A stretch of DNA of 56,603 bases. Origin: Clostridia bacterium. Lineage in GTDB: Bacteria; Bacillota; Clostridia; Oscillospirales; Acutalibacteraceae. Below the pieces are notes generated by a model. That model did not search any database and had not been told where the DNA came from. It saw nothing but the letters and a program-made list of their open reading frames with translations. The stretch covers positions 1-56,603 of the forward strand of contig JAFQRA010000012.1 of the NCBI GenBank assembly GCA_017410325.1, written 5' to 3'. The position numbers and the translations under genes were made by a program. This document shows, piece after piece, positions 41,880 to 56,603 of this stretch. Each line of letters opens with the position of its first letter. The first letter of the stretch is position 1.

Positions 41880-43001
41880 TTATTCCTCAACTACCCAGCC
41901 GTTTTCGGCTGCGTCGTAGTAATTCTGTCTGATTGTGTTGACACCAAGAGAATTGATGTGCATTGTTGTGCCGCCAATCATATCCTCTGTGTAGTAGCAG
42001 CCGAGGCCTGTCTTTACAGCGTATGTCAGGCGGATACCGTCATACATTACGGAGTAGTCGTTGACGTGGTCGTGGCCTACAACGATATCCTTTGTGCTGC
42101 CGAGCTCCTTGCAAAGTGCAAAGAAGCCGTTGTTGAGGAGAACGGTTTCACCGTTTACCTCTGTGTACGGGAAGCCGCCGAATTCGTATCTGCCGCCGTA
42201 AGCAAGGGGTCCGAATACATCGCTGATTTCGCCCATATAGTCTTCATCACCTGTGTAGAGAACCCAGGCGTCAAGGTATTCAACAACGGGAATGTGCATA
42301 ACAACCGTGCTGGGTACGGTATAGCCTGCGATTGAAGCGATACCCTTGATTGCCCACTCGTACCAATCCATCTGGTTTTCCCAAAGGTGGTCGTAAGCGT
42401 TTACAACCGTGCCGTCTTCAAGAGTGTAGTCATTGTTGTTGTGTGTGTCCATCATAAAGTATGTGTGGACTATTCTGCCGTTTTCGGTGATGTTGATTAT
42501 GTAGTTGCCGTAGCCCATATCCTTGGGACCGAATTGGAACAGGCAGTTTTCTGCCTCGTCAAGAAGATATGCTACCCAGAATTCGCTCATACAGCCCTGG
42601 CCGTCGTGGTTGCCCATTACGGGTGCCCACGGAATACCGAAGGAGTCAACCAGCCTGATAAGCTCAATATAGGACATTGTGCCCCAGGCATTGTCGCCGG
42701 AAAGTGTGATAAGGTCGGGCTCGTTGTCTGCAACGAGCTTTCTGATGCAGTCCTCTGCGTATTCGCCGAGCTTGTCGTACTGCTCGTCGTCATCAAGCTG
42801 AACGTCCGCAAGGTTGAGCACAACAAAGTCCTCACCGGGTGTCTTTTTAAGCTCAAGGTAGTCGTCTGCGCCGAATTTGTCTTCCGCCGACCAGTCTGTG
42901 AAATAAGCATCCTCGCCGAAGGTGGAAATCCAGCCGCCTACGGGTGCAAGAATCTGACCCAGCGCAAGGAAGCCTGCAATGATAAGTCTGAAAATCGCCA
43001 T
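41880..43001 (-). CDS. Exported calcineurin-type metallophosphoesterase
   Basis: 373 residues. An N-terminal hydrophobic segment (FRLIIAGFLALGQILAPVGG) is a signal peptide or anchor. Metal-ligand blocks: VVLNLADVQLDDD, LITLSGDNAWG, VMGNHDGQG, VVMHIPVVEY and VVGHDHVNDY. It lies alone, convergent with the sulfatase gene. Related to the cytoplasmic enzyme at 16727-17749 (both have the HxPVVE-type block) but made for the outside of the cell. Substrate unknown. Confidence 0.87.
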   Translation of the reverse strand: MAIFRLIIAGFLALGQILAPVGGWISTFGEDAYFTDWSAEDKFGADDYLELKKTPGEDFVVLNLADVQLDDDEQYDKLGEYAEDCIRKLVADNEPDLITLSGDNAWGTMSYIELIRLVDSFGIPWAPVMGNHDGQGCMSEFWVAYLLDEAENCLFQFGPKDMGYGNYIINITENGRIVHTYFMMDTHNNNDYTLEDGTVVNAYDHLWENQMDWYEWAIKGIASIAGYTVPSTVVMHIPVVEYLDAWVLYTGDEDYMGEISDVFGPLAYGGRYEFGGFPYTEVNGETVLLNNGFFALCKELGSTKDIVVGHDHVNDYSVMYDGIRLTYAVKTGLGCYYTEDMIGGTTMHINSLGVNTIRQNYYDAAENGWVVEE

Positions 43002-43154
43002 TTTGTTTTACCTCCGTTTTGTTTTTAATCATTTTACCACTTTTGCAGGTAAACCTCAATAGACCGAAGAAAAAATAAAGTAAATTTTATGCACTTGTGC
43101 TTGTGCGCAAAAAGGTGTATTCTTATAAATATAAATATTTCGGGACAGATTAGT

Positions 43155-43808
43155 ATGATTAACAAAGACATCGGTTTAATTGAATATTCACGAGCGGTTG
43201 ACAAAGGCAACTGCATAACCCACGCTGTCGGTGCCGTGCTGAGCGTACCGGCAATAATTCTGCTTGCCCTCAAGGCCGATGGCTTGCGCCACACGCTTTC
43301 TGCCGTTGTGTTCGGCTTGTCGCTGCTTGCGGTCTATACCGTTTCGGCGGTCTATCACGGGCTCAGAGACGAAAAAAAGAAGCTCACCGCACGGCTTATC
43401 GACCACTCAACCGTACCGCTGCTGATTGCAGGCACGGCAACCCCCTGTGCGCTGATAACGCTTTATGAAATCAGCGCTTTTCATGCACTCGCCGTGTTCT
43501 TTCTCGGTTGGTTCAGCACCTTTTTCGGGCTTTTTGCAAAGCTGTTTTTCTTTGAAAAAACACGAAAAATAACAGTTGCGGTTTATATAATTTCAAGTCT
43601 GCTGATGATGTGCTGTGCCCTTCCGTTTCTCGGACAATTTAACAGCGGCGGCTTCGGCGGAATAGTTTTCGGAAACGCTCTTTACCTTACGGGTGCACTC
43701 TTCTGCCTCCTCGGCAGAAAACGCCCCGCCCTGCATATCGTGTTTCATATCTTCACCGTGCTTGCAAGTGGCGTACACTTTGCGGTGATATATCGGTTTG
43801 TGGTGTGA
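43155..43808 (+). CDS. Hemolysin III/PAQR-family membrane protein
   Basis: About 217 residues with seven TM segments. The family metal site is formed by SAVYHGLRD (after TM2), the Asp of RLIDHSTVP (TM3) and the late HIVFHIFTVLASGVHF. The start was set at ATG 43155 (MINKDIGL), which gives the usual length; an upstream in-frame ATG at 43089 would add a Cys-rich, poorly conserved piece. Members are putative Zn-dependent membrane hydrolases. Despite the name, haemolytic activity is not established for most. Confidence 0.9.
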   Translation: MINKDIGLIEYSRAVDKGNCITHAVGAVLSVPAIILLALKADGLRHTLSAVVFGLSLLAVYTVSAVYHGLRDEKKKLTARLIDHSTVPLLIAGTATPCALITLYEISAFHALAVFFLGWFSTFFGLFAKLFFFEKTRKITVAVYIISSLLMMCCALPFLGQFNSGGFGGIVFGNALYLTGALFCLLGRKRPALHIVFHIFTVLASGVHFAVIYRFVV

Positions 43809-43884
43809 ATCAGCGAAAGGCTGCGGATACTTTTTTATTGCCAAAACAGAAAATATGTATTATATTAAATGTGAGGTGATTATT

Positions 43885-44751
43885 ATGTCATTTAAAGAAA
43901 TTTTAGCTTATGCAAAAAAGATTGCATGTGTACTTTTGGCGCTTATTATTCCTTTTCTGGGTTTTGACTCAATCGGGCAATACGGCTCAAAGGCATCCGA
44001 AGACAGCGAAACCGTACGCGTAATGTCGTTCAACGTGCGTAACGGCGAATATGACCGCGGCAAAAACGTGCCGCAGTTTATTGCCGACTATATGCCCGAT
44101 TCCGTCGGCTTACAGGAATGCGAGGGCACGTGGTATATGACACTTGAAGCTTATCTGAGGAAAAGCTACGGCTTTGTCGGTACAGGCAGGCTTACGGGTG
44201 TAAAATACATCGGCGAGGCAACAGCAATTATGTATCGCAAAGATAAATTCAAGCTTGTTGACAGCGGCACATTCTGGCTTTCCGAAACACCTGACAAGGT
44301 TTCAATCGGTTGGGATGCAAAGCATCACAGAACCTGTACGTGGGTTGTGCTTGAAAATAAGGAAACCGGCGAGCAATATGCGCATATCAACACTCACCTT
44401 GACCACAAGGGTGCTCAGGCAAGGACAAACGGACTCGCACTGGTTACAGATCTTGCAGCAAGCTTTGATATACCCGTAGTTGTAACAGGCGATTTCAACT
44501 TTGGAAAGAGCGACCCGCTTTACACTCAGCTTGTTTCGGGTGACCTTACAGATACACAGGAGGTTGCAGAAAAAACAATGAGCGGCAAAACCTACCACGG
44601 TTACAGCGGCGGCGAAGAGGGCGAGCCGATTGATTTTATCTGCATAAACGGTAAGGTTGAAGCAGTCAAGGAATACCGCATCGTAAGAGATATGTACGGT
44701 GACACATATATCTCCGACCACTACCCGATATTTGCGGATATAGTTTTATAA
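43885..44751 (+). CDS. Exported endonuclease/exonuclease/phosphatase-family protein
   Basis: 288 residues. An N-terminal hydrophobic segment (CVLLALIIPFLGF) suggests export or membrane anchoring. The EEP fold shows VRVMSFNVRNGEYDRG, VGLQECEG (metal Glu), THLDHKG, VVVTGDFNFGKSDPL and a final ISDHYPIFADI. It could be a nuclease or a sphingomyelinase/phosphodiesterase-like enzyme. The start was set at ATG 43885 because GAGGTGAT precedes it; the frame upstream to 43798 overlaps hlyIII. Strong terminator follows. Confidence 0.88.
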   Translation: MSFKEILAYAKKIACVLLALIIPFLGFDSIGQYGSKASEDSETVRVMSFNVRNGEYDRGKNVPQFIADYMPDSVGLQECEGTWYMTLEAYLRKSYGFVGTGRLTGVKYIGEATAIMYRKDKFKLVDSGTFWLSETPDKVSIGWDAKHHRTCTWVVLENKETGEQYAHINTHLDHKGAQARTNGLALVTDLAASFDIPVVVTGDFNFGKSDPLYTQLVSGDLTDTQEVAEKTMSGKTYHGYSGGEEGEPIDFICINGKVEAVKEYRIVRDMYGDTYISDHYPIFADIVL

Positions 44752-44768: not shown

Positions 44769-44802
44769 AAGGATAGCTCCGCCTGAGAGCTATCCTTTTT
44801 TT
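44769..44802 (+). terminator. Terminator after the EEP gene
   Basis: AAGGATAGCTC and GAGCTATCCTT form a perfect stem around CGCCTGA, followed by TTTTTTT. Confidence 0.93.
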
Positions 44803-45028: not shown

Positions 45029-45057
45029 TTGACAGTAATTAAAATATTTAGTAACAT
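45029..45057 (+). promoter_or_regulatory. Promoter of the VWA-tubulin operon
   Basis: A perfect TTGACA at 45029, 17 bases, then TAACAT at 45052. Expected transcript start is near 45064, giving an 80-base leader. Confidence 0.82.
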
Positions 45058-45076
45058 TAAAAATGCAAAACAAGGT

Positions 45077-45117
45077 CGTTTTTTGTCGGTTTTGAATAAA
45101 TAAACAGTCAAAAAACG
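45077..45117 (+). promoter_or_regulatory. Hairpin in the leader of the VWA-tubulin operon
   Basis: CGTTTTTTG (45077-45085) and CAAAAAACG (45109-45117) can pair over a 23-base loop, 15 bases before GAGGGGAGAT, the ribosome site. It could affect translation or message stability, but there is no terminator. Confidence 0.4.
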
Positions 45118-45147
45118 GTCAGAGTAACAGAGGGGAGATGTTTTTGT

Positions 45148-47412
45148 ATGAGAAAAAACAGCAGTGTTTTTTCATCAAAAAACAAAAAAAGCACCTGTGC
45201 TGTCGGTAAATATGTTGCGGTAAGAGCTATCAGCCTCATACTTGTGCTGATAGTTGCTTTATCGTCGACGTTTGTTTTTGCTGCGGCAAACGAGGAGGAC
45301 ACAAACATCACAAAAGTAAACAGAAGGTATGAGATTGCCGTTGTTTACGATAACTCAGGTTCAATGTACATGTCCAAAGCGTGGTGTTATGCAAAATATT
45401 CAATGGAAATATTTGCTTCGATGCTTAACTACAGCAATGGCGACAAGCTTCTCGTTTTTCCGATGTGGGAGGTTTCGACGGATGGAAAAGCAGTAGAAGC
45501 GACGGCCGAACCTGTTGAAAGTTCCGGCAGTATTCAGGTTAACAGCCCGGACGAAGTAAAGAAAATTTCAAATATGTATACGCTGAATGCGGACGGTACA
45601 CCCATAACCCAAGTGGATAATGCGTATAATTATCTTCTCAGCGTACCTGAGAAAGAAGATACCATTACTGAAAAATGGCTTGTTGTTATTACGGATGGCG
45701 AATTTAATGATGATGAGGGCAGGGTACTGTCTCCCGATGCGGTCAGAGATCATCTTGCATCAAAAGCTACAGACGGAATAAGAGTTCAGTATCTCGGCTT
45801 TGACGGTGCAAAAACACTGAAAAGCGATGAGTCAAACGGATTCTATTCCAAAACCTCAAAAGCAAGCACGCTCAGAAAAGACCTTACCGATATCTGTAAT
45901 GAAATTTTCCGTCGTGCAATTTTGTCTAAAAGTTATTTGAACAGCAAAAATCTTAAGCTTGGCATTTCAATGAGAAAGCTGATAGTTTTTGTTCAGGGTA
46001 AGAATGCAGAAATAGTTTCTCTTGAACAAAAGGCAACCGGAAAGAAAATTTCCGTTGTTGCGGATAGCGGAAAGATACAGTACAGTAAACTTGGTGCGGC
46101 AAACTACAAAAAGGCTCCCTATGACGATTCGCTGTACGGTCAGGTTGTTACATTTGATGCTTGCGAGGCCGGAGATTATATCCTCAACTATAAGGGCGCA
46201 ACCGAAATCCAGATTTTCTATGAGCCCGATGTTGATATTGACATCACCGTAAAAAACGAAAAAGGTGAAGAGGTAACACCTGAAAGCGATAACCTTTATC
46301 CCGGAAAGTACAGTGTTGAGTATGCCGTTATTGACAGAATGACAAGAAAAGATGTTGTCGATTCCCCGCTTATGGGTGAGAACGGTGTTGAAGACCTTGT
46401 CTGCAATGCGGAAATAACAAGAGACGGTAAAACGCAGATAATTGAAAACTTCAAGAGCGGCGATGAGGTTGACCTTAAGGCAGGTGACAGCCTGTTCCTT
46501 AATATCAGTGCTAAATATCTTGAAGATTATACAATCACCACAAAAGAAAACATAAAGGGCTCAACATTTAACATAAAGGATTTTCCCGACACGCCGGAAT
46601 TTAAAGTTGATGTTGATGTCCTTCAGGATAAGGATTGGTACACACTTGCAGACAGAGAAAAGTGGGAGCCTATAAAGGTTGGCTTTTCTCTTGGCGGTGA
46701 GCCTCTTACCGATGAGCAGGTAGCGGCGATTGCACCGACCATCGTTATCGAGCCTCAGAAGGATGATATGTCGGATTTGCCTTTTATGTACAAAGTTATG
46801 TCCGGTGAATCTGCACTGGCAGTTTACATAGCAAAGGATGAAAACGGCAAGGATACTGAGCCCGAACCGGACACAGGCAAATACAAATTAACCGCTACAG
46901 CATCATGTCTGGATGAAAACGGTCAGACCAGCAACGAGGATGATGACAGCGATAAATTCACAATATCAAAATTCCCCTCGTGGTTACCCGTGGTTGCAGG
47001 TTTGCTGGGATTGTTAGCGTTGCTTATAGCCGCTTTCATAATCAGCAGAATACCGGCTTATCCGAAAAAGGTGGTCATTCAAGAAAAAGTCGGTGTTAAT
47101 GAGTGGGAACCGGAAAACGGAATAATACTTCATGTCAGAAATTATTTTTCCGCAACAGATCTTGATGGTGACACCATTTTCAGCGGAGACGTTTCAAAGA
47201 CTTCAACAATCGGAAACCGAGGAAAGACAAATGCATCGTTTCAAGTAAAAATCACGGAAATTATGGCCGGTGTTGAAAGAATGAGTATTGATGGTCAGGA
47301 AATTAAAGTGGCTGAAGAGCCTGAAGTGAAAATTACTAATGAAACTATGATTGTTGCCAGAAGAAGAGGTATAGACAATCAATATCGAATACTCATAAAT
47401 CCCCGAAACTGA
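45148..47412 (+). CDS. Exported von Willebrand A protein with C-terminal TM segment
   Basis: 754 residues. A long signal sequence (hydrophobic around residues 27-46, AISLILVLIVALSS) precedes a VWA domain at about 60-260. Its MIDAS is complete in outline: VVYDNSGSM (D68, S70, S72), TPIT near 141-144 and VVITDGEFND (D183). Beta-rich, Ig-like segments fill about 270-600. One TM segment lies at about 612-633 (WLPVVAGLLGLLALLIAAFI), followed by a roughly 120-residue cytoplasmic domain. The protein can therefore link an outer ligand-binding domain to the inside of the cell, where the next gene's tubulin-like protein should be. It is first in the four-gene run. Confidence 0.85.
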   Translation: MRKNSSVFSSKNKKSTCAVGKYVAVRAISLILVLIVALSSTFVFAAANEEDTNITKVNRRYEIAVVYDNSGSMYMSKAWCYAKYSMEIFASMLNYSNGDKLLVFPMWEVSTDGKAVEATAEPVESSGSIQVNSPDEVKKISNMYTLNADGTPITQVDNAYNYLLSVPEKEDTITEKWLVVITDGEFNDDEGRVLSPDAVRDHLASKATDGIRVQYLGFDGAKTLKSDESNGFYSKTSKASTLRKDLTDICNEIFRRAILSKSYLNSKNLKLGISMRKLIVFVQGKNAEIVSLEQKATGKKISVVADSGKIQYSKLGAANYKKAPYDDSLYGQVVTFDACEAGDYILNYKGATEIQIFYEPDVDIDITVKNEKGEEVTPESDNLYPGKYSVEYAVIDRMTRKDVVDSPLMGENGVEDLVCNAEITRDGKTQIIENFKSGDEVDLKAGDSLFLNISAKYLEDYTITTKENIKGSTFNIKDFPDTPEFKVDVDVLQDKDWYTLADREKWEPIKVGFSLGGEPLTDEQVAAIAPTIVIEPQKDDMSDLPFMYKVMSGESALAVYIAKDENGKDTEPEPDTGKYKLTATASCLDENGQTSNEDDDSDKFTISKFPSWLPVVAGLLGLLALLIAAFIISRIPAYPKKVVIQEKVGVNEWEPENGIILHVRNYFSATDLDGDTIFSGDVSKTSTIGNRGKTNASFQVKITEIMAGVERMSIDGQEIKVAEEPEVKITNETMIVARRRGIDNQYRILINPRN

Positions 47413-47449
47413 ACTAAATAAACAATCTATTTTAATAAGGAGAATAATT

Positions 47450-50400
47450 ATGAAAGAAAAATTACAGCCCAATGATGTTGAAGCTACCCTTTTTGTCGGC
47501 CTTGGCGGTATAGGCTCAAAAATTATCAAGGGTGTCAGAGAAAGGTGTAAGAACGACAACCTGAAGAATGTTCAGTTTGTAACAATGGATACCGACGTAA
47601 ACGATCTTGAACGCCTCGAGGAAGGCCCCGAAATTCTCTCTATCCAGACATCTTCTTCCCGTTCGGTTGCCGCATACCTGCGTAACGACAGAGCAGCAAA
47701 GGAAGAGTGGTTCCCCGAAAATAAAATTCTTGACGGCAAAACCGTTTCCGAGGGTGCCGGTCAGGTCCGTGCAATTTCACGTCTTGCGCTTAATGCAACA
47801 ATCAAACAGGGCAGAATATCTGTTCTGTACAAGGCAATAGATGATCTTTTCCTGAAAGACGGCGGCAACAAGAGCCGTGCAGTCAGGGTTGTAATCGCTT
47901 CAACTGCAAGCGGCGGTACAGGCTCGGGCATTACTCTTCCCTTGGCTATGCTTATCCGCCAGTATCTCAAGAAAAACTATCCTGAATCTGCAGCCGTTAT
48001 CCGCGGTTTTATTGTAATGCCCAGCGTTCTGGATACGGTTGTTGAGTCTGAAAACGAAAAAAACAGCCAGCGCCGTAACGGTTACGCAACTATCAAAGAA
48101 ATTAATGCGTTTATGATGAAGGCTTCCGGTGCGTTCGACTATGACCCCAGACTCCGCAGATATAAAGACCTTCATATCAAGCTGCCTACCACAGCTTCTG
48201 CAGACGAAAAGATTTCAAACCTTCCCTTTGATTTCTGTTTCCTTATTGAAAGAATTGACGGTAATCAGAAGAATATGGAATCTCTCAAGCAGTATCAGGA
48301 TTATGCCGCTCAATGTATTTATGAGCAGAACATCGGTCCGCTCAAGTCACAGGCTTCCAGCAAGGAAGATAATATCATCAAGGAGTTCTCGAATACCGAT
48401 AAGCACGGCAGAAACCGTTTCGGCGGTGCCGGTGCAGCTATTATCAGATATCCCTATGAAGAAATCCGCGATTACATAGCATACGATTGGGCACAGAACG
48501 CAATTCTCGGCCTGAAATCCGTAAAAGATCTTACAGACGAGCAAAGAGAAGAAGCTGCCTGCGAAAGATCTTGGATGATTTATGATTATAAGTTTGATAA
48601 AGCCTTCAAGGTATGGCAGAACGATCCTAAATCAACAGAGGAGAATAAGCCTGAACTCAGAAAGCACTATATCGATTGCTTCTCTGCTTCTGATGCTGAT
48701 GAATTTACAAAGAAAATGCAGATGAAGTATATCCAGAAGAAAATAGATATGCTTAAGGAAAAGTCTACCAACGCAAGCGATGATGCAAATTCATTCCGCC
48801 TGGATTCACACAAGGTTGCAAAAGAATATTATGATTCCATCGTTGAGGCTGTAAAAAACGAAATAGGATCCAATATAATGGTAAATGCAAAGAATTCCCT
48901 TAAGAATTTGCTTGATAAGCATGTCGGTGGTGTGAAAATATCAGGAAACTATGTTCAGGCATATAACGAACTTGAAGCAATGTCAAAATTCACTGACCAT
49001 ACTCAAAATATAAAGAAAAATGCAGAAGAATGTATAAAAAATATTTTTGAAAAAGAAGATGTAATTGGCAGAGATAAAGGTGCACATCTGCTCAGCAATT
49101 TCCTTTCTGATGGTGACCGTGCAATGCATCCTAACGCAGTACGTTTCCTTCTGTATGTTCTCCTTGAGCATCTTGAAGAAAAGAAGAAGAATAATCCGCC
49201 TTTCGACAGGGCGACATATGAGGAGGAACTTAAAAAGGTTTATCAACCTGAAGATACCGAAAAGTTAAAGGTTATGTTCGGAGGAGCACCAGATTCCGTT
49301 AAAAATATGTGTAAATCACTGGATGATCTTTATGGAATCAAAGCTACGCTTGCCAATATCGGAAATAATGCGGATGATGCAAAGAAGACGTGCATGAAAG
49401 AGCTTAATAAATACAGAGATAAGGTTGTAGCAGGTTTGGAACAATTAATTAACTCTGTTGTTATTGAAATGGCATATAACAGAATTGATGCTCTTTGCAG
49501 AACATACGAAAAATTCTACAGACTGTTCGGTACAAAGGCATACGGACTTGAAAAGAAACGCGAGGAAATTGCCGACAAGCTCACAAATAAAACAGGCAGC
49601 TGCGTACATAATCTTTTCGGCTCAAGAAACCTTCTGGAAACCCTTTCCGAAAAGGCTGTTGTAGCCGATAATGAAGAAGGTGAAAACGAGCTTTACAAGA
49701 CCTTCTACAGAGCCATGCGTGACAATACCGAAATCAGCGAAATGAACAGTGCAGACAAGTTCTCCAAGAAAACAGAAATTGATGTGTTCAACGATATTAT
49801 TATAAAGTCCTTCAAGGATTCCGTTGATGCCTGTTGTGCTGATATAATTGACCTTGATATTCTTCGCGCAATGAAGCTTGAACACGAAACGAAGTATGAC
49901 TATAAGCTTTCTCAGCTTGCTGCGGACAGAGAAGAAGAGAAGTCAGACCTGAAAAAGCTCAGGGACAAGCCCGAAGAAGTGCTCGCATATATCAATAAAT
50001 TGCTTAGGAAGGGCAGAAACCTTGCCGCTCCCAGTATTTCAAAGAATGACTTTGAAGAGGAAAGAGAAGTTTCTGCTGTTGCATACAGCAAAACGCTTAC
50101 CGATTTCGGTAATGTGGAAATCAATAAGCTTTTCGAAGAGAAAAATGCAGCAGAGTCAGTTTCCCGATATGAACTTCATTTCTTCCGTTCAATCTATGGT
50201 CTTACTCCTATTCAGATTTCAAAGATGTGCAGCCCGGAAATGAGCAAAGAAGAGCTTGCCAAATGTGTTGACATCAGCAGCATTGACGGTAATGTTGAAA
50301 TCGGTGACTATTTTGTTAATTATCAGGAATATATGGAAAACATCGGTCCGGATTGTAAGCTCAACGCTCTCATCACGCCGCATATCGATAAGAGCTGGAA

Positions 50401-51172
50401 TTCAATTTCCGTTATGCCTGAACTCGACCTTGAATATCAGTCACATCTTATGCAGGACATTCATCAGGCATTCTTCTACGGCTTCCTGTTTGATATTATT
50501 GAGCTTTATCAGCCTTCGGTTTATGACAGCAACACATGGGCATACCGCTTTTTCGATATTAATAATAATGCCAGAAACTTTACTGTTTCAAACGGTACAC
50601 CCTGCGACAAGTTTGATGAGGTTCTTGACGGACTTTACTTTGACCGTGCAGCCGTGAAGGCCATTAAGAAAATGGCCTGCGCTAACCGAACAAGGGACAG
50701 GAATTCCAGAACCAGCTTTGACAAGACAATTTTCTTTAACGCACTCGGATCCCTTTCCAGAGAAAAGATGGTGGGCGAAATCACAAGCAGCGATGCTAAG
50801 CTTGCAAAAACACTTAAGACATCGATGTTTGAAATTCCGCTTATGTATTACAATTCTTTGATGATTTCCGATGATATGGATGAAATCATTGCTATGGTCA
50901 AGGCCATCATCAATGCGGTTAAGTATCAGCTTTCTTCAAAGGAAAGAGGAGTTAACCTTGACAAGCATGTAGCACAGCTTGTTGTTGAACACCACAACCT
51001 TCTGCTTGAGAATTATGTCAAGCTCAATGATTTCCTTGCTATGGGTGTTGAAATCCACTCAAATGAGGCTATGATATCCATACACAAGTTCATCAAGCAA
51101 TATGTAGACAGATATCTTCCCAACGGTAACGATCTCAAATCTCTTGACGAATACAAAACAAAGAAAAACTGA
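47450..51172 (+). CDS. Tubulin/FtsZ-superfamily GTPase with a long C-terminal extension
   Basis: 1240 residues. The first 350 form the tubulin-like (Tubulin_2) domain. The T1 nucleotide loop is FVGLGGIGSKI (residues 15-25), then VTMDTDVND (45-52), EGAGQVRAISRLA (101-113) and the tubulin signature STASGGTGSGIT (151-162). FIVMPSVLD lies at the T5 position. This is three times the length of FtsZ; the remaining 850 residues are mostly charged and helical, with no motif I recognise. It very likely binds GTP and may form filaments; this is family knowledge, and polymerisation here is inference. No TM segment, so cytoplasmic. It follows the VWA gene by 37 bases behind AAGGAGAA. Confidence 0.85.
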   Translation: MKEKLQPNDVEATLFVGLGGIGSKIIKGVRERCKNDNLKNVQFVTMDTDVNDLERLEEGPEILSIQTSSSRSVAAYLRNDRAAKEEWFPENKILDGKTVSEGAGQVRAISRLALNATIKQGRISVLYKAIDDLFLKDGGNKSRAVRVVIASTASGGTGSGITLPLAMLIRQYLKKNYPESAAVIRGFIVMPSVLDTVVESENEKNSQRRNGYATIKEINAFMMKASGAFDYDPRLRRYKDLHIKLPTTASADEKISNLPFDFCFLIERIDGNQKNMESLKQYQDYAAQCIYEQNIGPLKSQASSKEDNIIKEFSNTDKHGRNRFGGAGAAIIRYPYEEIRDYIAYDWAQNAILGLKSVKDLTDEQREEAACERSWMIYDYKFDKAFKVWQNDPKSTEENKPELRKHYIDCFSASDADEFTKKMQMKYIQKKIDMLKEKSTNASDDANSFRLDSHKVAKEYYDSIVEAVKNEIGSNIMVNAKNSLKNLLDKHVGGVKISGNYVQAYNELEAMSKFTDHTQNIKKNAEECIKNIFEKEDVIGRDKGAHLLSNFLSDGDRAMHPNAVRFLLYVLLEHLEEKKKNNPPFDRATYEEELKKVYQPEDTEKLKVMFGGAPDSVKNMCKSLDDLYGIKATLANIGNNADDAKKTCMKELNKYRDKVVAGLEQLINSVVIEMAYNRIDALCRTYEKFYRLFGTKAYGLEKKREEIADKLTNKTGSCVHNLFGSRNLLETLSEKAVVADNEEGENELYKTFYRAMRDNTEISEMNSADKFSKKTEIDVFNDIIIKSFKDSVDACCADIIDLDILRAMKLEHETKYDYKLSQLAADREEEKSDLKKLRDKPEEVLAYINKLLRKGRNLAAPSISKNDFEEEREVSAVAYSKTLTDFGNVEINKLFEEKNAAESVSRYELHFFRSIYGLTPIQISKMCSPEMSKEELAKCVDISSIDGNVEIGDYFVNYQEYMENIGPDCKLNALITPHIDKSWNSISVMPELDLEYQSHLMQDIHQAFFYGFLFDIIELYQPSVYDSNTWAYRFFDINNNARNFTVSNGTPCDKFDEVLDGLYFDRAAVKAIKKMACANRTRDRNSRTSFDKTIFFNALGSLSREKMVGEITSSDAKLAKTLKTSMFEIPLMYYNSLMISDDMDEIIAMVKAIINAVKYQLSSKERGVNLDKHVAQLVVEHHNLLLENYVKLNDFLAMGVEIHSNEAMISIHKFIKQYVDRYLPNGNDLKSLDEYKTKKN

Positions 51173-51202
51173 GCGGTTAAATAGACACCGTCAAGGAGGT
51201 GA

Positions 51203-53251
51203 GTGGTGTTGTTTACAGTTATAATCTGCAGCCAGGCGTTTATTGATAAATGCCAGAGTGCATATTGCGGTTTTCTCAAGCCCTTGCTTGATAACGATGA
51301 GCAATATGCTTTTTGCCCGTGGGATGCAACAAAGCAGACTATGGATGAAGCCGTGCCGGATTTACGGCGTCTGATTGACAAGAAGAAGGATTGGCGTGCA
51401 GTAGCAGTTCTTGATGATGAAATTTATGGCAGACATAATATTCTGAAAAGAAATCCGTTTAATTTTGTGGATTCTGAAAATCTTCTTAAAGATCTTAAAT
51501 CGTTGGAAGAGGTTGCTGAATTCAGAAAGAAAACAACGGAAAGCTGCCGCAAAACTATTGATAACCCGCTTATGAAACTCGGAATATGGCTCGACGGATC
51601 GCCACTTAACGCGGTCCCCGGGCTTTCCGAGAAATATCCAGATGAGCCAGACGGTCTGAATCGGGATTATTTTGATAAGCTGGGAACGGGGCCACACCGG
51701 GCAATTGAATATGAAGTAGACAGACTTGTTCAGGTAAGAAAAAGCTTCCTAGAGGAAAACTTTTCTGCTGAAGGTGAGCTTCCGTTCAAACCGAAGCAGT
51801 TTATTGCTGTCAGCGAGCGTGTTCTTTCATCAGGTCACGAAGAGGCGGAAGAAGCCTGGAAGCTGCAATATGAATTTGCATATTCCCGTTTCAGTGAGGA
51901 TAATCTTTATCCTGCAAAATTCAAATATATTCTTTTCGACATACCCTATGTAAAAGGTGTGAGAAAGGAATCGGATTATCTTAATTTTCTTGTTTTTGTT
52001 CTTGTTCTTGCACAGAATGACAGCACGTCGAATGTGATGATGCCCGGTAAAGTGTACCGAGTCAATATTAAAATGGACAAGGAAAAAATCAATGTATTTT
52101 ATTCTTCATATCTCGGAAGACTGATGGCAACGGTCAGTCTTCTTGAGAAAATGATGAAGAAAAAAGTGTCCGATTCAAAGGATCCGCTTGACAATGCATT
52201 TGTCAGAGAAAACTATGAATCTAATATAAAAATTCCTGTCGCAATCGGCAGTGCACACAGCACGGATAATCTTTTTGCCGAATGCAAAGGTCTCGGCCTG
52301 GCGACGGATTGTCCCAAAAGCGAAGAAGCTATGTGGGATGAGCAGTCACACGATATAATGAAAAGTTTTATTCGCTATATCAGAGAGCCCCGCAGAGCGG
52401 TCAAAAGGGCGGCTGAAAAAGAGTTGCATATCAGGTCTGAAATTGATGACGAAAAAATTGTCCGTTTGACAGAAAGCCAAAAAGAGGATATAGCCTTCAG
52501 ACTTGTTGAAGAAGAGGATAAAATGGTCGGAACCGTTGTACCCAAAATCTTCAAGAGCGAAGAATATATTGAACAGATTGAAAAGGAAGATAAAGCCATC
52601 AGACGTAACATATCACACCGAATGACGAAGAAGACAACAGTTGCAGCGGGCGTGATTTCCTTGGCAGCATTCCTTTTTGGTTTGTTACCGTTGATTTTTA
52701 ACAACGTCAATGATGGTGAAGCGTTTGGCGCAGCGATTCTTATTATTCTGTGTTGTTTGGCAATACTTGCGGTTTCGGGTATCATATACCTTGTTGTTCA
52801 GCATTTCAAGCTGAAAACGCGCTTTAAATGGTTCAACAAGGTTATGCGTATGATACTTGGGGATATAGACAGCGGCCTTGAATCGTTTTCGCAATATTTC
52901 AGTCATGCTTGCAATGTCATGCGATGCTTTTCAGTTCTCAATTATTCCCAAAAGGAGTTTGCGGAAAAGAAAAACATTTACAAAAAGCATATCTGGGATA
53001 TTGAAAAAAAGATTGATGAAATTATCAGAATATTTGCCGGATATATCGATACGGATTCCCCCGGTTATTATGAAGCGGAACCCTTCGATTACGACTTTTC
53101 GGTTTTGTGCGATTATGAATACGATTTACCCTATGAGCAGATGGTGAACCGTATTACTTTCCTGCAGAGCGGAGAAAAGATTGACGTGCCGATAAATTAT
53201 GTCAGCTCAATAAAATTGGAGGTGGAGAGTTTCTATGATCAATACTGCTAA
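51203..53251 (+). CDS. Unrecognised two-TM protein of the VWA-tubulin operon
   Basis: About 680 residues. I do not recognise the family. A large N-terminal cytoplasmic region (about 1-475) has no obvious catalytic motif and ends in charged helices (ESQKEDIAFRLVEEEDK). Two TM segments follow at about 479-498 and 508-533, then a C-terminal region of about 150 residues. A very strong AAGGAGGTGA precedes three possible starts in a row (GTG 51203, GTG 51206, TTG 51209); spacing favours the second or third. The end overlaps the next gene by 17 bases, so translation of the two is coupled. Its position suggests a membrane adaptor of the tubulin-like protein. Confidence 0.8.
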   Translation: MVLFTVIICSQAFIDKCQSAYCGFLKPLLDNDEQYAFCPWDATKQTMDEAVPDLRRLIDKKKDWRAVAVLDDEIYGRHNILKRNPFNFVDSENLLKDLKSLEEVAEFRKKTTESCRKTIDNPLMKLGIWLDGSPLNAVPGLSEKYPDEPDGLNRDYFDKLGTGPHRAIEYEVDRLVQVRKSFLEENFSAEGELPFKPKQFIAVSERVLSSGHEEAEEAWKLQYEFAYSRFSEDNLYPAKFKYILFDIPYVKGVRKESDYLNFLVFVLVLAQNDSTSNVMMPGKVYRVNIKMDKEKINVFYSSYLGRLMATVSLLEKMMKKKVSDSKDPLDNAFVRENYESNIKIPVAIGSAHSTDNLFAECKGLGLATDCPKSEEAMWDEQSHDIMKSFIRYIREPRRAVKRAAEKELHIRSEIDDEKIVRLTESQKEDIAFRLVEEEDKMVGTVVPKIFKSEEYIEQIEKEDKAIRRNISHRMTKKTTVAAGVISLAAFLFGLLPLIFNNVNDGEAFGAAILIILCCLAILAVSGIIYLVVQHFKLKTRFKWFNKVMRMILGDIDSGLESFSQYFSHACNVMRCFSVLNYSQKEFAEKKNIYKKHIWDIEKKIDEIIRIFAGYIDTDSPGYYEAEPFDYDFSVLCDYEYDLPYEQMVNRITFLQSGEKIDVPINYVSSIKLEVESFYDQYC

Positions 53252-56200
53252 AGATATAGTAAATATGATTGTTGCAATTCTTCCCTTCGTTGCTCTCTGC
53301 TATGCAAGCCAAAGGGTTAATTTGCCTAAATCGTACAGAGCAAAGCAGTTTTTTATGCCGGTTTACGCCGTGTTGTTTTCCGTTCTGGCGATGTTCCTGG
53401 CTAAAGAGGTTGACGGCTGGCTTTTAAAACTGGTTGAAAGCTTGCCTAATATCGTTTCATTACCATCAAAGATTTCATGGCTTCCCGAGGTGGCAAAGGC
53501 TGTCTTTACTCAGATATCAGCATATATCAGAGCGTTTATTCAGAAGCTTAACCTGAATTTCTGGATTTTCTTCTTAACAAATGTCGTTATTATGTCGGTT
53601 TATCTTGCATCAAAGAAAGTTGTACTTAAGATTATTGACAAAACAGTGAGCTATGATAGCGTAGCGTTTGAAAAAATAGCTACACGTTTTTATGAGTTTT
53701 TCCCTGAAAGAAGCAAATGGTGTCTTGCAGACAGATTTGTCCAAACAAGAGGTTTGTTGGGAATATTGTATTATGTGGCAGTTTCTCTTTCAGTTGGTAT
53801 TATGCTTGTAAGCCAGGAATATTACAGCGAAGGTGTGATGAAGGCTCTCTTCTATCCTGTTTTCGGTGTGCTTGTTATCGGTGAACTGTTTTTCTATCTG
53901 GATGGACTTACAAAACGCGAGTATTCAAAAGATGTTGTAGGTGAAGATGAAGAAGTTTACAGAACGGTCAACTACTCTTTGCTGAGAAAGTTTTTTAGAT
54001 CCATATTGGGTGATTCGCTTCTTGCGGAGAACACGAGCGTAAACAGCTCTCTAGGATACGATATAACAACGGATGATATTATACGCGAGCTGGAAAAAGA
54101 CGAAGATCCTAAGACAGTTACATATTCATCATATCTTAAGATGTTGAACAAAAGCGGTTTCAATATAGATCATAATTATCTGTATTCATCGCTGGATTTG
54201 TTGAAAGGGAAAAGTGTTCTGTTCAATAATCCGTTTTATAACGATCTTATACCCTATGCATTCTATCCTATGAACAGAGTTTTGCTAAGCAACAAAAAGG
54301 TGCTGGTAATTCTCGGTAGACACGCTGTCGAAAATGATATTACTGAATGGTTGCGAAAAGGCATTGAGTCCGTTACTAATGTTCCTTATATGTGGAACAT
54401 AGAAGTACTCGGTACAGAGTCTAAAAATCCCCATATCGGTATCATAACCAGGTCGGATGTTCTTAATATTGATTTGCACAATGCAAACTCTGACTTTTTT
54501 GAAGATGTCGGATACGTTGTAATTATTGAGCCGTCAAAGCTGGTTTCAACAGCCCAGATAGGTCTTAATCTTATTGTCAAGAAGTGTCGCCATAACGAAG
54601 ACAAAGAAATTGTTTACTGTATGTGCGACAAAAACTGCGATGGACTTGTCGATGCGCTGTCGCATATTCTTATGGAAAGTATAACAGAAGTTTCTGCAAC
54701 AAATAAGCACCTGGGAACATCATCTTATATGTGCTGGGAGCCGAATGAGGAATACACTCATCATAGGTTCTTGCCGAATATTTCCAGATATCTTGGTTTT
54801 GGTACAGAACTTTCTTTCGGTGCGCTAAAGAATCAGGTTTCGAAAACCAAGTGGTTTGGAGGCGAGGTTTTCCCGGTATCCGATATGCATTGGATAGCGA
54901 AGCAGTATTATTACGACCTTACAAAGTATGCAGGTCTTTCAACTTCGCAGGAAGTAATGGATGAGCGTTTCTTGACTTCCCCGAACTTCTGGAGTGCTAC
55001 CGCAGAAAAAAATTCATACATCACTGTTGAAGACGAAGCAAACAATATGTTTGAGGTTTTGCGCACCTTCTCAACGAGGACTACAGAGCAGGGATTTGTA
55101 AACATTATTTCATCCGATTATCTTTTAAAGCATTATATGGCGGATAACGCTTCGATTTTTGAAGCAGATGCCAAAGCGATTCCTTATATAGTTGCTGATT
55201 ATACCCGAAGCAACAGAAATACGCTTCTTCGGCTGATTCTGATGATGAGTACTAATCCCGTCAGTGAAGAGATGCTTGAAAAAGAACTCTCGTTGCTCAA
55301 TATAAGTGTTTTTGACTTGAAAAAGCAGCTTTGGTACGAAATGTATAATTGTTATGCAAAGGTTACTGAGGTGGCTACGATTCCCGGCGATTATAAGGAA
55401 GCGGTTGAAGAGGCTTTCAAAAGGGAAATAATCGGTGACGGTTATAGAATAAACGCTGATGTTTTTGAAACTGTTGAGAAATTCAACTTGAAAAAGGGCT
55501 GTACGGAAACTACTTATGCAATAAACGATAAGTCTTTCTTGCGTGCATGTGTTACGGAACTGCGCTCTGCCGGCTACATCGTTGAAGATGAAAAGGGCGG
55601 TAAGCACTACCTCGGCGCTGAACTGAGCGGACACATATATCAACGTCATCTCCCCGGACAGTTCTTTACATTTGACGGTAAATATTATGAAATGATGTAC
55701 CTTACTGCTGACGGACAGGCACTCGTACGCCGTGCATCAGATCATATCAACGGCAGGCCGAGTTATAGACAGAAACGCGAATACATTATTGCCGGAGTCA
55801 GACCTTCAGACAAAATCGGTTCACAGAAGAATATTTCAGGAATGAAGGTTTACCGCGAATATGCCGATATAACAGTAAACACTGACGGCTATTACAATAT
55901 GAAACGGTATAATGATTTTGTAACGGCAAATGAAATAATTTTTGAGGGCGAGAACGAGAAAAACAAGATACCGTCTAGAAGTTATCGAAACAAGGAGATT
56001 TTGCGTATAGAACTTCCTGCTTTTGAAGGAAAATACAACGATACTATCCGATATACCGTTGCTGTACTTTTCAACGAAGTCTTCAAAACAATATTTGCAG
56101 AAAACCAGGCTTTCATTTGCGCTGTTACGGATGATTCGTTTATAGCTGAAAACGAAAAGATCAAACCAAACACATTTACCGTAAAAGGCGACGATTGCGA

Positions 56201-56603
56201 AATTAACAGCAATTGTATTTACATTATTGAAGACAGTCAGCTGGATATGGGGCTGTTGATTTCCGTAGAAAGAAACCTTCAGCGAATTTTCAATATTATT
56301 TATGATTATCTCACATGGCACAGTGAAAAGCTTGAAGAGATTTTGGATCCTCAGCCCGATCCTGATCCCGGAATAATCTTTACTGATGATGATCCACAGG
56401 AGCCGGAGAGCAAAAAGAAAAAGAAGAAGGGGCTTATCCGCAGGCTTATAGATAAGCTCAAGAGCTTGTTTGGCAAGAAACGAAAAAAAGGAAAAGATGA
56501 TTCTGAAGGTGACGGAACAACCCCGGAACCCACTCCGGAAGGCGATGAAGGTGACGGAACAACCCCGGAACCCACTCCGGAAGGCGATGAAGGTGACGGA
56601 ACA
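53235..56603 (+). CDS. Large membrane protein with helicase-like cytoplasmic region, 3' truncated
   Basis: The frame is open from ATG 53235, behind GGAGGTGGAG, to the window edge (at least 1123 residues). About five TM segments lie at 9-25, 39-58, 108-130, 174-195 and 204-222. The cytoplasmic part holds VLLSNKKVLVILGRHA (about 347-362), where a helicase would have its first strand and Walker A, and DVGYVVIIEPSKL (about 426-438) at a Walker B position. Neither has the normal catalytic residues, so any ATPase relation is weak. FFTFDGKYYEMMYL and RASDHINGRPSYRQKREYII, later IIEDSQLDMGLL, look like conserved blocks. Then follow a Lys-rich stretch (ESKKKKKKGLIRRLI) and a repeat tail. The function is unknown. 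Confidence 0.75.
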   Translation, partial: MINTAKDIVNMIVAILPFVALCYASQRVNLPKSYRAKQFFMPVYAVLFSVLAMFLAKEVDGWLLKLVESLPNIVSLPSKISWLPEVAKAVFTQISAYIRAFIQKLNLNFWIFFLTNVVIMSVYLASKKVVLKIIDKTVSYDSVAFEKIATRFYEFFPERSKWCLADRFVQTRGLLGILYYVAVSLSVGIMLVSQEYYSEGVMKALFYPVFGVLVIGELFFYLDGLTKREYSKDVVGEDEEVYRTVNYSLLRKFFRSILGDSLLAENTSVNSSLGYDITTDDIIRELEKDEDPKTVTYSSYLKMLNKSGFNIDHNYLYSSLDLLKGKSVLFNNPFYNDLIPYAFYPMNRVLLSNKKVLVILGRHAVENDITEWLRKGIESVTNVPYMWNIEVLGTESKNPHIGIITRSDVLNIDLHNANSDFFEDVGYVVIIEPSKLVSTAQIGLNLIVKKCRHNEDKEIVYCMCDKNCDGLVDALSHILMESITEVSATNKHLGTSSYMCWEPNEEYTHHRFLPNISRYLGFGTELSFGALKNQVSKTKWFGGEVFPVSDMHWIAKQYYYDLTKYAGLSTSQEVMDERFLTSPNFWSATAEKNSYITVEDEANNMFEVLRTFSTRTTEQGFVNIISSDYLLKHYMADNASIFEADAKAIPYIVADYTRSNRNTLLRLILMMSTNPVSEEMLEKELSLLNISVFDLKKQLWYEMYNCYAKVTEVATIPGDYKEAVEEAFKREIIGDGYRINADVFETVEKFNLKKGCTETTYAINDKSFLRACVTELRSAGYIVEDEKGGKHYLGAELSGHIYQRHLPGQFFTFDGKYYEMMYLTADGQALVRRASDHINGRPSYRQKREYIIAGVRPSDKIGSQKNISGMKVYREYADITVNTDGYYNMKRYNDFVTANEIIFEGENEKNKIPSRSYRNKEILRIELPAFEGKYNDTIRYTVAVLFNEVFKTIFAENQAFICAVTDDSFIAENEKIKPNTFTVKGDDCEINSNCIYIIEDSQLDMGLLISVERNLQRIFNIIYDYLTWHSEKLEEILDPQPDPDPGIIFTDDDPQEPESKKKKKKGLIRRLIDKLKSLFGKKRKKGKDDSEGDGTTPEPTPEGDEGDGTTPEPTPEGDEGDGT
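56505..56603 (+). repeat. 42-bp in-frame tandem repeat (EGDGTTPEPTPEGD)
   Basis: Two identical units at 56505-56546 and 56547-56588 and 15 bases of a third, cut by the window edge. Each unit adds 14 acidic, Pro/Thr-rich residues, in frame with the gene that starts at 53235. Confidence 0.95.

Follow-up and report, generated by a model that had tools for sequence, protein, structure and literature searches.

We analysed contig C9 of a Clostridia bacterium genome (56603 bases, the last of which is the assembly end; hereafter the window). Its four final genes, encoding an exported VWA protein, a Tubulin_2/FtsZl1 GTPase (TUB) and two membrane proteins that we term P3 and P4, belong to a unit kept in the same order and on a single strand wherever it was found complete, and its last protein is predicted to combine a membrane anchor, an ATP-dead helicase fold and a zinc metallopeptidase. 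The four tandem + strand open reading frames (ORFs) lie at 45148-47412 (754 aa), 47450-51172 (1240 aa), 51203-53251 (682 aa) and 53235->56603 (1123 aa, open at the contig end), and the intergenic gaps in the ORF listing are 37, 30 and -17 bases, as an initial annotation of this DNA had claimed. We call the operon an FtsZl1/VWA system with a new kind of output module. Our preferred reading, which we put forward tentatively as possible and short of probable, is that the four proteins form a transmembrane complex that signals from the outside in, has a protease as its output and likely serves as a conflict response.

We surveyed 82 loci, consisting of 80 kept of 96 P4 relatives from a collection scan, minus 4 duplicates (L057, L071, L094 and L109), plus the window and 5 relatives; L030 was left out of the survey counts. 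Presence of a gene 5′ of P4 was scored where the sequence before P4 reached at least 1000 (P3), 2700 (TUB) or 6500 (VWA) bases. Where upstream sequence sufficed, P3 was present in 78 of 79 loci, TUB in 70 of 71 and VWA in 65 of 66. The order VWA, Tubulin_2, P3, P4 on one strand was kept in all 65 non-duplicate loci with all four genes (window included), and the P3 and P4 genes overlap in 63 of these 65. The four families therefore do co-occur elsewhere, a point whose failure the initial annotation had named beforehand as grounds for abandoning its proposal. The sole locus without VWA and TUB upstream (L101) comes from a genome in which the two genes are adjacent on a different contig. Among near relatives of the window genome, P4 was found in 6 of 59 genomes (window genome included), P3 in the same 6 of 58, and Tubulin_2 in those 6 and one more of the 58; gene order in the 5 other carriers is identical to that in the window. 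The linkage that had been foreseen for Tubulin_2 neighbourhoods is thus seen, with P3 and P4, in 6 of the 7 Tubulin_2 genomes among these 58 relatives. In the seventh (G051), distant VWA and P4 homologues flank the tubulin gene on either side, and an ORF without detectable similarity to P3 occupies the place of P3. Pairwise protein distances correlate among the four families (r 0.61 to 0.84; 53 complete sets), which is the expectation for linked genes. Judged on sequence, comparison of these loci shows the VWA protein, the FtsZl1 GTPase, P3 and P4 to be kept together as one unit, in agreement with the conserved membrane-centred unit of FtsZl1/VWA kind that had been proposed.

The initial annotation had described P4 as a multi-pass membrane protein with a large cytoplasmic part; that description stands, and it falls short of what is now predicted, namely a pseudo-helicase with a metallopeptidase, encoded by a gene that is truncated at the contig end (P4, N-terminal part, 53235-56603). 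P4 is predicted to be anchored in the membrane by about five transmembrane (TM) helices. In the window protein five segments are predicted within aa 7-219 (53253-53891), with a positive-inside pattern that fits an external N-terminus and an internal C-terminus, and in the survey five were predicted in 45 of 82 members and four in 22 of 82. The core follows at aa 228-1030 (53916-56324). A Foldseek search with the model of a homologue (L026) matched MrfA (6znp_A; E 4.1e-23, 900 columns, TM-score 0.56 by target), and the match to the YprA/MrfA fold covers RecA1 and RecA2 plus the C-terminal module behind them. We also compared P4 by hhalign with 20 MrfA-like proteins, with reversed controls. The whole core gave E 0.27 (reversed 0.59) and the RecA1 segment E 0.063 (reversed 0.80), the latter in register at motif II; we counted the weak whole-core value as outweighed by the structural match.

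The motifs required of an active ATPase of this fold are degenerate in P4. No Walker A motif (G-x4-GK[ST]) was found at motif I in 78 aligned P4 rows, the lone match, in L045, lying elsewhere, and the search was repeated with wider patterns suited to MrfA-type loops. Because the MrfA-like reads end short of motif I, we judged this motif from the P4 model, in which the strand at 104-108 passes straight into a helix from 112, leaving no P-loop. In the window, the family alignment places the degenerate motif I region, GKSVLFNNPFYNDL, at aa 325-338 (54207-54248) and the degenerate motif II region, VVIIEPSKL, at aa 428-436 (54516-54542). Each of the 78 rows has I, V, L or M in place of the Walker B Asp, and the E432 and P433 that come next are invariant. 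Behind the RecA domains of P4 we found no conserved four-Cys set of the kind that forms the DUF1998 cluster. The P4 core is predicted, from the fold of the model and these motifs, to be a YprA/MrfA (DUF1998)-fold pseudo-helicase that is ATP-dead.

YprA-family helicases are central to several immune systems, namely DISARM, Dpd, Druantia and ARMADA (Bell et al., 2025; PMC12458937, preprint). What P4 shares with the YprA/MrfA helicases is the predicted fold of its entire core, both in the RecA domains and in the part that follows them. Unlike them, it is predicted to be membrane-anchored, lacks Walker A, has the Walker B Asp replaced and is missing the DUF1998 Cys4, although the Cys4 has also been lost in canonical Dpd (PMC12458937). 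A further difference is that the fusion partner of P4 is a peptidase rather than a nuclease, and the words tubulin, VWA and transmembrane are absent from the main text of that preprint (PMC12458937).

A predicted DNA-helicase fold that extends to the part after the RecA domains could also suggest DNA handling at the membrane, with P4 holding DNA and the tubulin-like GTPase acting as a cytomotive system that moves, segregates or takes up this DNA. Plasmid DNA is moved by the tubulin-like protein TubZ, which would be a precedent. We consider this very unlikely, given that the motor motifs are lost in P4, that no plasmid record carries P4, and that such a system would need neither an exported VWA protein nor a peptidase.

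The P4 core is followed by a charged, variable linker and then by a domain in which four Cys and an HExTH motif are invariant (36 aligned rows); in at least 90% of these rows a Glu comes after the motif (E266, in EGMxxW), and this Glu would be the third zinc ligand. In 51 loci P4 and this domain form one protein, and in 15 the domain has a gene of its own directly after P4; in 13 the contig ends before the domain would be reached, and 1 (L112) has none, with L030, L091 and L110 left out of this count. HExxH is kept in 64 of the 66 domains. Comparison of the loci shows that a putative zinc metallopeptidase belongs to P4, either fused to it or encoded directly next to it, and its metal sites are predicted from the conserved residues. 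Pfam searches at E <= 1 with the 36 members gave weak matches throughout, to DUF6782 (35 members), DUF6055 (34), BSP (32) and DA1-like (8); for one member whose cut-offs were given, every match was under the curated cut-off. With these families the domain has in common HExxH and a conserved downstream Glu, the matches being weak. In plant DA1, a Cys-rich zinc module likewise precedes the peptidase; the P4 Cys4 element may not be a LIM domain. In some genomes P4 and the peptidase are accompanied by a transglutaminase-like domain too.

In the window itself the P4 gene is incomplete, since position 56603 is the contig end and lies inside a 42-bp tandem repeat of P4 (56504-56603, + strand, 2.4 copies), the site of the assembly break. 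The fourth gene is thus truncated by the assembly. In the window genome the peptidase domain has a single match, near the beginning of contig C4 (294-1250, E 2e-149); this contig opens with an identical 42-bp unit, in a reading frame that continues into a transglutaminase-like domain. The beginning of C4 apparently supplies what P4 lacks in the window, the pieces being unjoined in the assembly.

The first gene of the operon (45148-47412, + strand) encodes a protein with an N-terminal hydrophobic segment at aa 27-45, one TM segment at aa 615-633 and then a cytoplasmic tail, as judged by TM prediction, and this combination of N-terminal segment and C-side TM recurs in 57 of 60 members. All 6 members of the family alignment keep D68-x-S70-x-S72, the residues of the metal-ion-dependent adhesion site (MIDAS), and also T182-D183-G184. 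The window protein has no Pfam VWA match at E <= 1; among the six members, three match VWA_2 and three match VWA, weakly (best E 0.0068). The VWA domain is predicted to be extracellular, with one TM segment and a cytoplasmic tail, which agrees with the exported, receptor-like protein that had been described. The second gene (47450-51172, + strand) encodes a 1240-residue protein that, also as described, belongs to the tubulin superfamily: its aa 14-352 match Tubulin_2 (PF13809) with E 1.4e-58 and 199.3 bits against a cut-off of 27. The signature loop GGTGSG is found at aa 155-160; of 67 members longer than 900 aa, 66 have it. This GTPase is predicted to be cytoplasmic.

For P3 (51209-53251, + strand; ORF listed from 51203), the start is probably TTG at 51209 rather than 51203, because AAGGAGGTGA lies just 5′ of it and four of five other members begin with MFTVI or MFTVV. 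The P3 model (pLDDT 87.6, pTM 0.68) contains an alpha/beta N-terminal domain, a hairpin of two TM helices, a helix of about 105 residues and a small beta C-terminal part. Its comparison with structure databases revealed no clear structural relative; the initial annotation had described P3 as an unknown protein with two TM segments.

Makarova and Koonin (2010; PMC2875224) predicted that FtsZl1 (Tubulin_2) and vWA proteins form a membrane-remodelling system, and reported a distinct P-loop GTPase and an OmpA-type protein as frequent, though not universal, in FtsZl1/VWA operons. In common with that system, the operon has a Tubulin_2 protein with a long C-terminal extension adjoining an exported VWA protein and membrane proteins, with the VWA gene in the TUB operon in 65 of 66 loci whose upstream sequence is long enough. 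Unlike it, the four genes include no OmpA protein, protein kinase or separate P-loop GTPase, and P3 and the pseudo-helicase/peptidase P4 are found instead (PMC2875224). Neither a distinct P-loop GTPase nor an OmpA-type protein gave a Pfam match in the four proteins, and neighbours were viewed through their 25 commonest families. The likeness to this system drawn in the initial annotation thus holds for Tubulin_2 with VWA, but not for the distinct GTPase, which is not among the four genes, and its suggestion that P3 and P4 replace the outer-membrane part is not supported.

On this precedent, FtsZl1 filaments anchored by P3 and P4 might bend the membrane or form vesicles under control of the VWA protein. 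A single operon does combine FtsZl1, VWA and membrane proteins, as in PMC2875224, and the P3 TM hairpin with its very long helix could span a distance under the membrane. Remodelling would leave unexplained both the dead helicase body and the peptidase, which is fused or adjacent to P4 in 66 of 67 visible loci; moreover, T6-H7 elements were not identified in FtsZl1, and whether it forms filaments was left open (PMC2875224). We regard remodelling as an unlikely function of the operon.

Another related arrangement is the Firmicutes tubulin/vWA/GTPase theme among the GAP1-N2 GTPase-centric conflict systems (Kaur et al., 2020; PMC7159879). Firmicutes tubulins with C-terminal extensions and extracellular VWA proteins at the membrane are common to both, and in that theme they are effectors of conflict systems. 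In the theme, tubulin and VWA are each encoded twice and are joined by GAP1 and zinc-ribbon TRAFAC GTPases (PMC7159879), whereas the operon has one tubulin and one VWA gene. Pfam revealed no TRAFAC GTPase with N-terminal zinc ribbons among the four operon proteins, and no GAP1-named family among the P3 and P4 matches to E 1, the presence of GAP1 models in Pfam being unchecked. In a genome without P4 (G262), we observed a locus (L137, 7635-14749, - strand) with two close Tubulin_2 genes and a weak VWA homologue upstream, which may represent this theme. Tubulin_2 proteins have been described as a divergent group with its own history (PMC9871819). Our literature search, whose reach excluded supplements and most subscription journals, found no paper describing the four-gene set.

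Carriers of the operon are, by record titles, mostly Clostridia, many of them from gut or rumen samples, with single metagenome-assembled genomes (MAGs) titled Treponema, Erysipelotrichaceae, Myxococcales and Proteobacteria as outliers (titles taken at face value). Three carriers are recorded under strain names, with neither 'MAG' nor 'uncultured' added: Flavonifractor sp. An112, Pseudoflavonifractor sp. An44 and Faecalicatena contorta ET51. Bacteroides capillosus is now placed near this group. An FtsZl1 gene was mentioned in that species in 2010 (PMC2875224), so P3 or P4 may be among the families that this paper leaves unnamed. Presence is patchy, with the operon in 2 of 11 genomes of the window's genus, and the window P4 is about 31% identical to that of a genome of the same genus (G003) and 64% identical to that of a genome of another genus (G013). 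Because P4 is closer to the latter and presence is patchy, we read this pattern as horizontal spread of the operon.

We examined the genes around the operon in two sets. The downstream set comprised 112 of 113 same-strand genes within 3 kb that lack the HE[LM]TH motif (a 2970-aa gene of L101 was omitted for length), and the upstream set 99 of 109 genes on either strand, omitting pieces of P3 or P4 (L079 and L091), six genes of L101 and two of L110. Downstream, TIR_2 was found in 10 genes, a transglutaminase core in 7 and RyR in 3; upstream, none of these was among the 25 commonest families, the lowest of which had a count of 1, so TIR occurs in at most 1 of 99. Taking the upstream count as 1, Fisher's test gave p 0.009, a rough value because the two sets were chosen differently, the flanks reached less far upstream and genes from the same locus cannot count as independent. 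The TIR-type PADLOC model SAVED_TIR matched 8 of the 112 downstream genes. TIR proteins with LRR or TPR repeats were observed downstream of the operon at L048 17740-19386, L025 1-1311 and L051 16810-21810. A CASTOR-like channel family (PDB CASTOR, E 4.5e-7) is encoded near the operon in 12 loci, in one of them upstream. Among the 58 relatives, full-length matches to it occur in G000, G003 and G013, all carriers (3 of 7 carriers versus 0 of 51 other relatives, p 0.001), with a partial match in G025; in two of the three the gene is on a different contig from the operon. In the window genome, a CASTOR-like RCK channel gene lies beside likely recR and dnaX genes (L175, contig C7, 1157-3265, - strand). 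A family with a C-terminal RyR domain is encoded near the operon in 13 loci; one such membrane protein was observed at L025 3475-5292 (- strand).

These surroundings bear on a further explanation, namely surface sensing or attachment in the gut. The VWA protein would bind surfaces of the host, food or neighbours, and regulated proteolysis would adjust envelope or adhesion proteins, with no role in defence. The VWA protein is predicted to be exported and has the MIDAS pattern in 55 of 63 members across the surveyed loci, and many carriers are titled gut or rumen MAGs, both of which are consistent with such a role; patchiness within the genus and the enrichment of TIR genes downstream fit conflict better than housekeeping. 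We therefore consider surface sensing improbable.

Under the preferred reading of an outside-in signalling complex, ligand binding or force at the VWA MIDAS would be passed inward, and the TUB GTPase would switch or assemble on P3 and P4. The pseudo-helicase body would serve as a clamp or a gate and may have kept the ability to recognise nucleic acid; its release would let the tethered peptidase cut an intracellular target. We infer, in other words, that the VWA protein and the GTPase control a tethered protease. Neighbouring genes, for TIR proteins, CASTOR-like channels and RyR-domain proteins, would provide additional outputs, and the likely use would be a conflict response to phage, toxin or attack by neighbours. 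The conflict part of this reading draws on the TIR genes downstream, the CASTOR-like gene in carriers, the YprA helicases of immune systems, and the patchy, non-vertical spread. A more specific version, which we think doubtful at best, is that the ATP-dead YprA-type helicase is a nucleic-acid-sensing clamp gated by the integrin-like VWA receptor and the tubulin-superfamily GTPase. At the membrane, a trigger from outside or the sensing of foreign nucleic acid would then free the fused protease, with its transglutaminase, TIR and channel partners, and shut the cell down, making the operon a new class of membrane-based phage defence.

Several observations weigh against the proposed signalling complex. 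The TM count of P4 is uncertain, and for this reason the side of the membrane assigned to the peptidase depends on two other features, the positive-inside pattern and a fold like that of a helicase. Sequence-level support for the relation of P4 to MrfA is weak, as the hhalign values (E 0.063 and 0.27) indicate. P3 is absent within 1364 upstream bases in L110, two domains (L083 and L113) lack the peptidase motif, and in L112, titled a Myxococcales MAG, P4 has no adjoining peptidase and the genome no Tubulin_2. Tubulin_2 matches occur in 14 of 391 genomes of the class, 11 of them above the cut-off, and when 11 Tubulin_2 genomes were tested with the P4 profile, P4 was found in 5 and not in the other 6, indicating that Tubulin_2 is found in other settings too. 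Plasmid and viral contig records gave no match, and PADLOC matched no defence system to the four operon proteins. TIR enrichment concerns a minority of loci and compares gene sets that are not alike, the downstream set being same-strand only, and the RyR-domain family is also found in genomes without the operon.

The initial annotation had placed a near-consensus promoter before the operon. Such a site, TTGACA-17-TAACAT, is indeed present at 45029-45057 (+ strand) and matches the consensus at 10 of 12 positions; it is weak evidence because promoter-like sites are common in the region (51 observed versus 29.4 +/- 5.9 in shuffled sequence). A terminator-like hairpin at 44769-44797 (both strands, 11-12 pairs plus a T run; a pattern match only) lies between the upstream gene and the operon. 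At 41880-44751, 5′ of the operon, are genes for a calcineurin-like phosphoesterase (- strand), a small multi-TM protein that we take to be HlyIII-like, and an endonuclease/exonuclease/phosphatase-family protein, all apparently unrelated to the operon. On contig C4 of the window genome, right behind the end of P4 (L176, 2537-10886), we observed genes for a 1515-aa FHA/FtsK_SpoIIIE (EssC-like) ATPase and then two small WXG-like proteins, together with a 242-aa protein, a 713-aa Mbeg1-like hydrolase and then a protein kinase. The WXG-like assignment is our own; one of the two small proteins matches LXG with E 0.0019, under the cut-off. From its gene content this stretch looks like a type VII secretion locus. 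A general link between the operon and type VII secretion was rejected, as phmmer at E 1e-4 found none of those genes in other loci (flanks up to 10 kb).

The 2010 description of the FtsZl1/Tubulin_2 family did not settle its role, and the operon supplies a minimal, strictly kept set of partners for it. It also offers an output that could be assayed, the peptidase, and a gate that could be tested, a pseudo-helicase predicted to have the YprA-family fold found in DISARM and Druantia; with strain-named carriers available, bench work looks possible. If the conflict reading is true, one system would bring together a tubulin-like protein, a receptor outside the cell and a helicase fold of the immune type, and the operon may be an unstudied bacterial signalling or self-defence machine in gut Clostridia.

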